Of a stretch of 46,067 nt of DNA, positions 1 through 28,408 are shown in pieces. A model generated the notes under the pieces. It was not told the origin of the DNA and did no database searches. It saw only the letters and a program-made list of their open reading frames with translations. Source of the DNA: Flavobacteriaceae bacterium. Its GTDB lineage: Bacteria > Bacteroidota > Bacteroidia > Flavobacteriales > Flavobacteriaceae. The number at the start of each line of letters is the position of its first letter. Positions within the stretch are counted from its first letter, which is position 1. Made by a program: the position numbers and the translations under genes. The DNA lies in NCBI GenBank assembly GCA_024635765.1, contig JAGXIE010000005.1:1-46067 (forward strand), in the 5' to 3' direction.

Positions 1-596
1 ACAATGTCCACCAATATTCTATAAGAACGTTCACAAATCTCAATTCTACGTTCGTAGGTATCCGCTTGTCCATCTTCATCAAAGGCCATAACAATCACAG
101 CAGCTCCATAACGTTTGACCAATTTGGCATGATGAATAAACCCAACTTCGCCTTCTTTTAAACTTATGGAATTTACGACGGATTTCCCTTGAACCACTTT
201 CAAACCTGCTTCTATGATTTCCCATTTTGAGCTATCAATCATAATTGGGATTCGAGAAATATCAGGTTCTGATGCTATCAAATTTAGGAATGTTGTCATG
301 GCATACACACCATCCAACATCCCTTCGTCCATATTCACATCGAGGATTTGAGCTCCACCATCTACTTGATGTCTTGCGACTTCTAGTGCTTCTGAATAAT
401 TTTCTTCTTTAATTAATCTTAAGAACTTACGCGAACCTGTAACATTTGTGCGTTCTCCTACATTGATAAAATTACTTTCTGGGGTTACCACAAGTGGTTC
501 AAGCCCAGATAAAGTTAAGTACTTTCTTTGGTTGATGGTTGATGGTTGATGGTTGTACTTTCCTTCATAATTTTTTATAATAATTGATAAAACCAT
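1..596 (-). CDS. metH: Cobalamin-dependent methionine synthase, second half (pterin-binding part; partial, runs off window)
   Basis: This is the second gene of a split methionine synthase. The full enzyme moves the methyl group of 5-methyl-tetrahydrofolate to homocysteine through cobalamin in the cytoplasm. The visible 198 codons hold the start of the pterin-binding (DHPS-like) barrel: [45 protein letters not shown] and [17 protein letters not shown]. The B12-binding and activation domains would lie beyond position 1. The only in-frame ATG before the conserved region is at 596, inside the 3' end of the neighbouring four-helix-bundle gene. Conserved sequence begins only at about residue 25 ([10 protein letters not shown]). 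Residues 1-24 are encoded by that gene's tail and by a 7-bp repeat array, so the native start appears to have been replaced. Identity is very secure; the start is an inference. It is probably cotranscribed with the other met genes. Confidence 0.93.
530..555. repeat. Heptamer tandem array (GGTTGAT x3 plus partial), left flank of the four-helix-bundle cassette
   Basis: Three perfect copies of GGTTGAT (530-536, 537-543, 544-550) are followed by GGTTG. The array lies inside the extended 5' end of metH2 and is read in frame (three 7-mers are 21 nt). It is inverted relative to the array at 936-963. Confidence 0.9.
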
Positions 597-918
597 TTAA
601 TAGTTTTTTATTTGAAATCAATTTTTCAAGAATCGCTTTTAATTGTGAATCAGAAATATATTCTAAATCGAAGGCTAAATACAGTTGTGTTTCTACTTCA
701 TTCAAAGAACCCTTTGAAATGTAAAGAAAATGTATCGTTTCTTTATTTGATTGACGTCCTACTCCTTCAGCAATATTTGAAGGAACAGATATAGCACTTC
801 TCCTAATTTGGTTGGTCAATCCATAGATTTCATCATTTGGAAATGATTTGCTCAATTGATACACCAACTTCACCAATTCTCTAGAAAATTTCCAAACATC
901 CAATTCCGTATAATCCAT
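565..918 (-). CDS. Four-helix-bundle protein of the 23S rRNA intervening-sequence (S23/IVP) family
   Basis: A 117-residue protein with the family hallmark SVPSNIAEG at about residues 44-52, preceded by TNQIRRSA, and an otherwise all-helical pattern. The family (TIGR02436-type) was first seen encoded in 23S rRNA intervening sequences. Free-standing copies are common in Bacteroidetes and form small four-helix-bundle oligomers; their biochemical role is not settled. Here it lies between the two halves of methionine synthase, in the same direction, 30 nt after metH1, and its last 32 nt overlap the predicted start of metH2. Degenerate 7-bp repeat arrays in inverted orientation flank it (530-555 and 936-963). 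I infer that it came in as a discrete cassette and has no role in methionine synthesis. Family assignment is firm; function is unknown. Confidence 0.9.
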
Positions 919-935
919 AAATTCTATTCAATATC

Positions 936-963
936 CATCAACAATAAACTAACAACTAACAAC
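936..963. repeat. Degenerate heptamer array (CATCAAC, AATAAAC, TAACAAC, TAACAAC), right flank of the cassette
   Basis: Four consecutive 7-mers share the form yAwcAAC. CATCAAC is the reverse complement of the GTTGATG unit of the array at 530-555, so the two arrays face each other around the four-helix-bundle gene. The stop codon and last codons (VVVSC) of metH1 are written by this array. Confidence 0.75.
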
Positions 964-1950
964 CACTTGACGGGGTTTATAATTTTTTGCCACCTCTACA
1001 ATTGCTTTGATATGGTCTGGAGTTGTGCCACAACAACCTCCAATCACATTAATGAGTCCGTCTTTTAGATAATCTTCAACCAAAATCTGCATTTCTTTTG
1101 CTGATTGGTCATACTCACCAAAAGCGTTTGGCAAACCTGCATTTGGATAAGCAGACGTGTAAAATTCGGTTGCGTTGGACAAACGTTGCAAATAAGGTTT
1201 CAATTGTTCGGCGCCAAGAGCACAATTAAAGCCAACACTTAACAACGGGACATGGGAAATTGAAGCCAAGAATGCTTCAACCGTCTGTCCGGATAGCGTT
1301 CTTCCGGAAGCATCGGTAATGGTTCCAGACACCATCACGGGAATATCGATATTTCGTTCTTCCTTGACTTCTTCGATAGCGAATAAACATGCTTTTGCAT
1401 TCAAGGTGTCAAAAATCGTTTCTACCAATAATACATCTACGCCTCCATCAATCAACGCTTCAATTTGTTGTTTGTAGGCAATTCGTAATTCATCAAATGT
1501 AATGGCACGATATTCTGGACGATTTACATCTGGCGAAAGACTCGCAGTTTTGTTCGTCGGCCCAATACTTCCTGCTACAAAACGTGGGTGGTTTGGATTG
1601 GCTTTAGTGAACTTTTCTGCCACATCTTTTGCGATGCGTGCCGATTCAAAATTCAGTTCATACACCAATTCTTCCATATGATAATCAGCCATTCCGATAG
1701 TGGTACCAGAAAAGGTATTGGTCTCTACAATATCAGCTCCCGCTTCAAAATATTTAGCATGAACTTCCGCAATGGCATGAGGCTGTGTTAAGGATAATAA
1801 ATCATTGTTTCCTTTTAACGAATGTGGATAGTCTTTGAACCGTTCGCCTCGATAATCTTCTTCAGTGAATTTATAGCGTTGCAACATGGTGCCCATTGCG
1901 CCATCTAAAACTAAAATTCTCCTCTTTATTTCTTCTGTAATAGTTGCCAT
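949..1950 (-). CDS. metH: Homocysteine S-methyltransferase domain protein (first half of split methionine synthase)
   Basis: This 333-residue protein corresponds to the N-terminal homocysteine-binding barrel of MetH. It opens with RRILVLDGAMGTMLQ and carries the three zinc/homocysteine cysteines: C243 in VGFNCALGAEQL, and C306 and C307 in GGCCGTTPDH. It should bind and activate homocysteine for methyl transfer from the cobalamin half encoded just downstream. The start codon overlaps the metZ stop (TAATG), which indicates translational coupling. The last residues (QVVVSC) come from a 7-bp repeat array, so the native C-terminus has probably been swapped for repeat-encoded residues. A stand-alone betaine- or SAM-homocysteine methyltransferase is less likely, given the adjacent pterin-binding half. 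Confidence 0.95.
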   Translation of the reverse strand: MATITEEIKRRILVLDGAMGTMLQRYKFTEEDYRGERFKDYPHSLKGNNDLLSLTQPHAIAEVHAKYFEAGADIVETNTFSGTTIGMADYHMEELVYELNFESARIAKDVAEKFTKANPNHPRFVAGSIGPTNKTASLSPDVNRPEYRAITFDELRIAYKQQIEALIDGGVDVLLVETIFDTLNAKACLFAIEEVKEERNIDIPVMVSGTITDASGRTLSGQTVEAFLASISHVPLLSVGFNCALGAEQLKPYLQRLSNATEFYTSAYPNAGLPNAFGEYDQSAKEMQILVEDYLKDGLINVIGGCCGTTPDHIKAIVEVAKNYKPRQVVVSC

Positions 1951-28294: not shown

Positions 28295-28300
28295 AACTTT

Positions 28301-28407
28301 AGTATTAAGTATATAGAATTAAGTATCGAGACTCAATTCTACTTTAAACTGTTACTTTTTAGTATTTCATTAGATTTTTTTCTTTGTTCTTTGTACTCTA
28401 TACTTTT
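28301..28407. repeat. Degenerate heptamer arrays between ilvB and ilvN
   Basis: 28301-28328 reads as four 7-mers AGTATTA, AGTATAT, AGAATTA, AGTATCG. 28380-28407 reads TTCTTTG, TTCTTTG, TACTCTA, TACTTTT. The two arrays bracket about 50 nt of AT-rich sequence with no gene. The layout recalls the heptamer arrays that flank the four-helix-bundle gene at 530-963. Confidence 0.5.
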
Positions 28408-28408
28408 T

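Follow-up and report, generated by a model that had tools for sequence, protein, structure and literature searches.

A probable mobile element built from an S23/IVP four-helix-bundle gene and inverted heptamer arrays

What is a short gene, enclosed by two inverted arrays of 7-nt repeats, doing between the two parts of a methionine synthase locus, and how did it come to be there? The question is posed by one end of the window, the 46,067-nt stretch of a Flavobacteriaceae contig that was analysed here, and it is answered below from this locus, its counterparts in related genomes and a wider set of elements of the same kind.

An S23/IVP gene between metH1 and metH2

The window element, about 400 nt in length, consists of one S23/IVP gene flanked by two inverted 7-nt repeat arrays, and it sits between metH1 and metH2, outside 23S rRNA. 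The gene (565..918, minus strand) encodes a 117-residue protein that matches PF05635 (E 3e-40; 137.2 bits against a cut-off of 33.8), which is its sole Pfam match at E <= 0.001, as well as TIGR02436 (131.8 bits, cut-off 24), and these profiles, an AlphaFold2 model and fold matches identify it as an S23 / 23S_rRNA_IVP four-helix-bundle gene. In the orientation of the gene, the 5' (left) array, of the GTTGTTA / GTTGATG type, occupies 935..965 (minus strand), and the 3' (right) array, of the CATCAAC type with 3.9 units, occupies 529..555 (minus strand); scored for self-match at lag 7, their 130-nt flanks reach 16/21 and 20/21, respectively. Specifically, TRF reports TGGTTGA x3.9 at 529-555 (100% match) and AACTAAC x2.4 at 947-963, and the first-listed inverted pair within 1-1600 consists of the 25-nt arms 528-552 and 935-959, which are 80% complementary. 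The earlier note had described a four-helix-bundle gene bracketed by inverted heptamer arrays, and both the profile matches and the repeat searches bear this out. Rfam gave no match in the window segment 300-1200, up to E 1.

Upstream of the insertion lies the host gene metH1 (949..1950, minus strand; PF02574, TIGR02082), the homocysteine S-methyltransferase part of a split methionine synthase, and downstream lies metH2 (3..596, minus strand; PF00809 on 3-512, ORF list), the pterin-binding part, which leaves the contig at its end. The left array overlaps the 3' end of metH1, and the right array extends into the 5' part of metH2, whose in-frame ATG at 594-596 falls within the IVS gene. In four orthologous loci (L009, L010, L011 and L015), the reading frame of an ATG at the IVS stop codon crosses the right array and joins that of metH2, and by eye the same holds for L098, while in the window (528-596) the corresponding ATG hits a stop after 17 codons. 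Because this ATG is in frame in the orthologues and not in the window, the number of heptamers may set the start of metH2.

The AlphaFold2 model, computed on 48 aligned rows, has a mean pLDDT of 97.7, and its best fold matches are XCC0516 (2gsc, Z 22.3) and BT_0352 (2rld, Z 17.7). Avd of diversity-generating retroelements is matched with Z 15.5 (4dwl) and Z 15.6 (8ub7), and other helical bundles reach at most 12.6. The 4dwl alignment spans 107 residues at 1.5 A with 9% identity, and the NCBIfam Avd profile scores 23.5 bits, under its 80-bit cut-off. Residues L6, P27, E30, Q37, S47, N48, A50, E51, G52, R55, G70, S71 and E74 are invariant in the 48 rows. Both S23 structure entries contain five chains, and Avd likewise has five, a number per entry that is no proof of a pentamer in solution. 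The only gene of the element is thus predicted to adopt an Avd-like, four-helix-bundle fold; no catalytic motif is known to us for the S23/IVP protein.

As to its surroundings, the earlier note had the gene interrupting a split metH locus. The position between metH1 and metH2 stands, but the element is not the cause of the split: in most relatives that lack the IVS gene, metH is already divided into two ORFs, and a single long metH frame (1171-1271 aa) occurs in 4 of 60 genomes. The empty metH1-metH2 junctions that the note had suggested looking for are present in all three same-genus genomes searched (L090-L092), with a gap of 26-29 bp and no heptamers. The gene was found at 3 of the 30 metH1-metH2 junctions read, so that gene and repeats at this position are not common to all related genera; 16 other loci in the element set share the metH site. 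Among the IVS-free metH junctions, 24 of 27 have a lag-7 score below 15, and of the rest, judged by eye, L100 and L113 resemble remnants, L113 carrying a gene-less array, and L093 looks like AT-rich chance. On a protein tree that is poorly resolved here, the metH site needs 8 changes for 15 rows. Separately, L101, L106, L107 and L110 have a small ORF of similar sequence between metH1 and metH2, which from its look we take to be an antibiotic-biosynthesis-monooxygenase-type gene, and in L106 the IVS unit comes after this ORF.

Period-7 arrays around IVS-family genes

The genome of the window contains eight PF05635 copies, seven of which have a neighbour of their own orientation on each side; the eighth, at the edge of its contig, comes after one such neighbour. 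Six of the eight pass the lag-7 test, defined as a self-match of at least 14/21 in the 130-nt flanks, on at least one side. Of the two that fail, L008 is truncated at the edge of its contig, and L001 has repeats at longer spacing. Judged by eye, the repeat unit varies between these copies (e.g. GTTGATG, GTTAACN, AGTCGAA and ATTACGA), and such different units rule out one common target or end sequence.

For a broader view, the 8 own copies were joined with the best 80 of at least 577 relatives, which come from Bacteroidota, Proteobacteria, Acidobacteriota, Planctomycetes and other groups, many of them as MAG contigs; L021, named Bifidobacterium breve and located at the metH junction like Flavobacteriaceae copies, is probably misbinned. 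In this 88-gene set, the lag-7 score reaches at least 14/21 in 67 of 88 upstream and 61 of 88 downstream flanks. Lags 4-6, 8-13 and 15 reach it in only 0-10 of 88 flanks, and lag 14, a multiple of 7, in 52 and 56 of 88. Control stretches from the same loci pass in 18 of 150 intergenic and 10 of 305 random cases. A period-7 array is present on at least one side of 77 genes, on both sides of 51 and on neither side of 11, the last including L001 and L008. Additionally, among 49 further elements from relatives, several of which share sites with the first set, 39 have one flanking array or more and 23 have both, and 8 of 10 plasmid copies (nine of the ten cyanobacterial) pass the test, L271 having no array. 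As a class, period-7 arrays around IVS-family genes exceed chance; the observation made in the window is real and more general than first noted. The expected enrichment of GTTGWTR heptamers around other family members holds strongly for the 7-nt period, but not for that sequence. One locus departs from the period itself, since L272 (1450-1880) bears arms of 8-nt period on both sides.

Filled sites, empty sites and the arms of the units

Related cyanobacterial plasmids (90-98% identical) provide both filled and empty sites, and the arms arrive there with the gene. Site A is filled in two Trichormus plasmids and one Scytonema plasmid, and six related plasmids match only the two sides of the unit, at 97.0-97.6% identity. 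When two of these six empty relatives (L300 and L301) are read against the filled L273/L303, the empty text is ...AAAAAGTAATTAACAAAT and the filled text is ...AAAAAGTAAT-[unit]-GTAATTAACAAAT, with GTAAT on either side of the insert. The Scytonema copy is two heptamers shorter than the Trichormus copy, and at the same site Nostoc C052 (L302) has the left array and, by eye, an apparently truncated gene. The difference at site A could represent precise loss rather than gain.

Filled and empty states are likewise seen at site C (L306-L308 empty, L276/L299 filled, ~90% identity) and site D (L309 empty, L272 filled, ~91% identity). Site B is not clean, as its filled and empty versions differ in ~40 nt, and one relative there (L305) carries a gene-less inverted pair. 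Site E, empty in the two relatives read (L314 and L315) and filled in L311, is not clean either. The Aulosira unit at site E equals the site A unit at 343 of 416 nt (82%), and this homology stops at the arms; one element, arms included, is thus found at two unrelated plasmid sites. The nine empty plasmid junctions have lag-7 scores of 8-13. Pre-existing arrays serving as an insertion target were not seen at the empty sites fetched, neither on the plasmids nor, with 24 of 27 below 15, at metH. The ends of the inserts are not uniform, GTAAT flanking the insert at site A and no duplication accompanying that of L313. On the plasmids of L268, L270 and L272, IVS units lie within CRISPR gene clusters, twice between cas6 and cas4 and once between cas10 and cmr3.

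Gene-less units accompany those with a gene. L312 and L313 have the same arms as a gene-bearing unit around unrelated interiors, and both lie antisense to their two neighbours (n=2). L317 lacks the 182-nt gene-less unit of L313; there the flanks are contiguous (92.6% and 94.5% identical), and no base is lost or duplicated at the unit's site. L219 contains a further gene-less inverted repeat pair, and in genome G010 the gene-less arrays L161 and L163 occupy junctions that bear the gene elsewhere (L049/L071 and L056/L065, respectively). In the window itself, period-7/14 arrays mark a possible gene-less heptamer unit at 28300..28408 (no strand assigned), in a 114-nt gap between co-directional neighbours.

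On the genome scale, at a threshold of 17/21 or above, 25 arrays were found in 1,200 kb from five IVS-bearing genomes versus 0 in 1,200 kb from five IVS-free ones, and at 16/21 the counts are 40 versus 3, in a comparison of ten genomes that ignores relatedness and for which the G010 and G053 stretches were partly chosen for known copies. The arrays of the IVS-bearing samples (16/21) merge into 31 clusters, 7 beside an IVS gene and 24 with none within 300 nt. G017 has IVS copies, but 0 arrays in the 140 kb sampled. Other repeats were met along the way: 400 kb of the IVS-free G035 (L168-L187) contain 38 arrays of period 9, only one of them intergenic, and G053 has long mosaics of several heptamers that are alike at two places, L219 and L223, the latter apparently located, judged by eye, just past an rRNA operon.

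The two arms of one element resemble each other far beyond the resemblance of arms at large. The left arm scored against the inverted right arm of its own element gives a mean of 15.33, versus 8.12 for arms of different elements (n=87); 0 of 2000 permutations reach the observed mean, and 32 of 87 elements have no equally good partner elsewhere. The 49 further elements repeat the pattern (13.91 versus 7.85; 25 of 49 with no equally good partner; 0 of 2000 permutations). At orthologous sites, own arm pairs score 15.51 (n=71) and pairs made across orthologues 10.93 (0 of 2000), the own pair standing above the cross pair at 15 of 16 sites, and the arms therefore changed together after host divergence. 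Left arrays are G-rich in 95 of 106 cases and right arrays C-rich in 84 of 99. In 20 protein pairs that are at least 68% identical and share no flank similarity, median arm similarity is 16.0 versus 8.5 for random pairs, with 16 of the 20 belonging to one GTTGATG-type Bacteroidota group. Across sites, arm type follows protein type weakly overall (rho 0.10), but the high-identity bins of that comparison hold some unlabelled same-site pairs, and the 20 flank-checked pairs are preferred. Among arm mismatches, examined for a DGR-like bias towards A, this base stands in the left arm 231 times and in the mirrored right arm 127 times, which coding limits may explain; stop codons per 100 nt (10.6 in left arms, shuffled 7.3; 5.3 in right arms, shuffled 4.0) fit coding limits as the source of this asymmetry only partly.

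Where both neighbours are available (144 elements), 127 elements share the direction of the two and 3 oppose it on either side. Neighbour pairs taken as controls from the same loci are skewed likewise (221 and 12 of 294), and the co-directionality in part reflects operon surroundings. Several operon junctions recur across genera, namely metH, metF, ahcY-metF, fadB-thiolase and sdhA-sdhB, many of them in methionine/folate and fatty-acid operons (names given by eye from protein starts), the recurrence of metH being inflated by sampling on similarity to the metH copy. On a protein tree of 142 rows, in which many forks are unresolved, copies group by site, and the site labels need 21 changes (least possible 15, shuffled mean 49.9). 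By this small number of changes, moves are rare, and most copies are old residents of one operon junction, related by descent at their site, with losses as well. The S23/IVP protein is under purifying selection: pN is below pS in 110 of 110 same-site pairs at least 60% identical (means 0.19 and 0.71), the pairs being non-independent and their synonymous changes near saturation.

Origin of the units and relation to known systems

Sequence comparison shows the gene and its arrays to be one unit, present at some matching sites and missing from others. Empty sites, arms travelling with the gene and one element at two sites together lead us to read it as a mobile element with heptamer ends. We propose, with a probability of roughly 0.7, that it is a small mobile element made of an S23/IVP gene and inverted period-7 ends on which the S23 protein acts. 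The earlier idea of a small four-helix-bundle element with heptamer ends and no transposase gains support from the filled and empty sites and from the period-7 enrichment. For its movement we favour a mechanism that acts on DNA, the S23 protein of which would recognise the arrays through their 7-nt spacing and work with host enzymes. Specifically, the arrays would offer the protein a multivalent site at which spacing matters more than sequence; the protein, together with host replication or repair enzymes, would paste the unit into new junctions, and the same partners would also preserve the match between the arms. Units without a gene would then be miniature derivatives or relics. We hold more tentatively, at somewhat less than even odds, that these units constitute an unrecognised class of autonomous element across several phyla, with the S23 protein as the mobility factor and ends set by a 7-nt ruler rather than by sequence, and that this class, gene-less miniatures included, is the source of much of the heptamer excess.

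It is unlikely that the units work instead at the RNA level, their arms pairing in the transcript, RNase III cutting there and the unit leaving the mRNA, so that selection acts on an RNA stem. Such a model would account for the matching of the two arms and for the location of units between genes, where cutting is harmless, and the Coxiella 23S rRNA IVS, a member of the same family, has complementary ends, GACAGAT heptamers and RNase III cleavage in vitro, as the excerpted text of PMC4990558 describes. However, the arm mismatches comprise 93 of the G-U type versus 150 of the A-C type and so show no G-U excess, a result that weakens the model and goes no further, because such an excess could be masked by coding constraints acting on the right arm. 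The coding-strand duplex is the stronger one in 43 of 93 cases and the weaker one in 50 of 93, the window RNA folds with a z of -1.17 (10 of 100 shuffles equally good), and the antisense placement of L312 and L313 also speaks against it. With these mismatch counts and this fold score, RNA-stem selection is not supported.

We also consider it improbable that the unit, as a passenger, is mobilised in trans by an enzyme already known, be it the reverse transcriptase of a DGR or the Y1 transposase of a REPIN system. The fold equals that of Avd, which is part of a reverse-transcriptase complex, the gene-less inverted pairs are REPIN-like (PMC3116915, in part), and Y1 genes occur in 18 of 39 IVS-bearing versus 3 of 21 IVS-free genomes (Fisher p 0.02, relatedness and genome size ignored), an association that keeps this explanation alive. 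Yet among 15 genomes with at least six copies, the window genome included and several of them drafts, 11 are without RVT_1, 6 without Y1_Tnp (PF01797) and 5 without either, and the RVT_1 matches of the window genome lie on a different contig (C53), not beside the Avd-like gene. An ordinary, vertically inherited operon gene whose heptamers were made by slippage seems very improbable. It would agree with the clustering of copies by site on the protein tree, with purifying selection on the protein and with the over-representation of heptamers in bacteria, for which slippage has been proposed (excerpted text of PMC4692102), but it has to face empty sites devoid of arrays, one element at two sites, arms that arrive with the gene and the lack of any array in the 1,200 kb sampled from IVS-free genomes, and slippage alone gives no inverted, matched arms.

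The mobile-element reading links two old puzzles, namely the role of the S23/IVS protein outside rRNA and the bacterial excess of 7-nt tandem repeats; repeats are also the subject of Mrazek and Huang (2007) and of Elhai (2008). If it is true, a single kind of mobile unit accounts, through its ends, for many heptamer repeats of cyanobacteria, Bacteroidota and other groups, and the heptamer question becomes testable through filled and empty sites and one small gene. Mobile heptamer-ended units may thereby account in part for the abundance of 7-letter repeats in bacteria.

Heptamer arrays between genes, as seen here, have been described in Xanthomonas and Nostoc, with inverted pairs numbering 70 and 75 in two Xanthomonas genomes (PMC4692102), and as TAACTGA repeats (PMC4679880). 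Unlike the present units, these are not tied to a named gene in the excerpted texts: the term S23 is absent from that of PMC4692102, as are "four helix" and "intervening" from that of PMC4679880, and the former calls heptamer function still to be elucidated and cites polymerase slippage. Among the matches listed in the open-licence literature, only PMC4990558 joins heptamers and an S23 gene, and the excerpts of PMC4990558 and PMC4692102 make no general link between the two. The Coxiella 23S rRNA IVS of PMC4990558, as far as its excerpt goes, is like the present elements in protein family, in an ORF between complementary ends and in tandem heptamers adjoining that ORF in strain-variable number (three or two GACAGAT units, depending on the strain, upstream of this S23 ORF), and its authors regard the protein as probably not made there. 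Unlike it, the window element is intercistronic and has heptamer arms on both sides; the present elements also show related copies at unrelated sites as well as gene-less derivatives, and RNA-stem selection is not supported for them.

A DGR shares with the present cassette the four-helix-bundle fold of its Avd, but the cassette has no reverse transcriptase. Classical IS elements and MITEs are similar in having terminal inverted repeats, which are heptamer arrays here; as for target duplication, GTAAT is seen at site A and none at the L313 site. REPIN/RAYT systems, according to the excerpted PMC3116915, resemble the present units in pairing a gene that has its own flanking repeats with gene-less inverted repeat pairs elsewhere. 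Their difference lies in both the gene and the ends, for the present gene is no Y1 (HUH) transposase, and the present ends are heptamer arrays in which the period is mostly fixed and the sequence is free.
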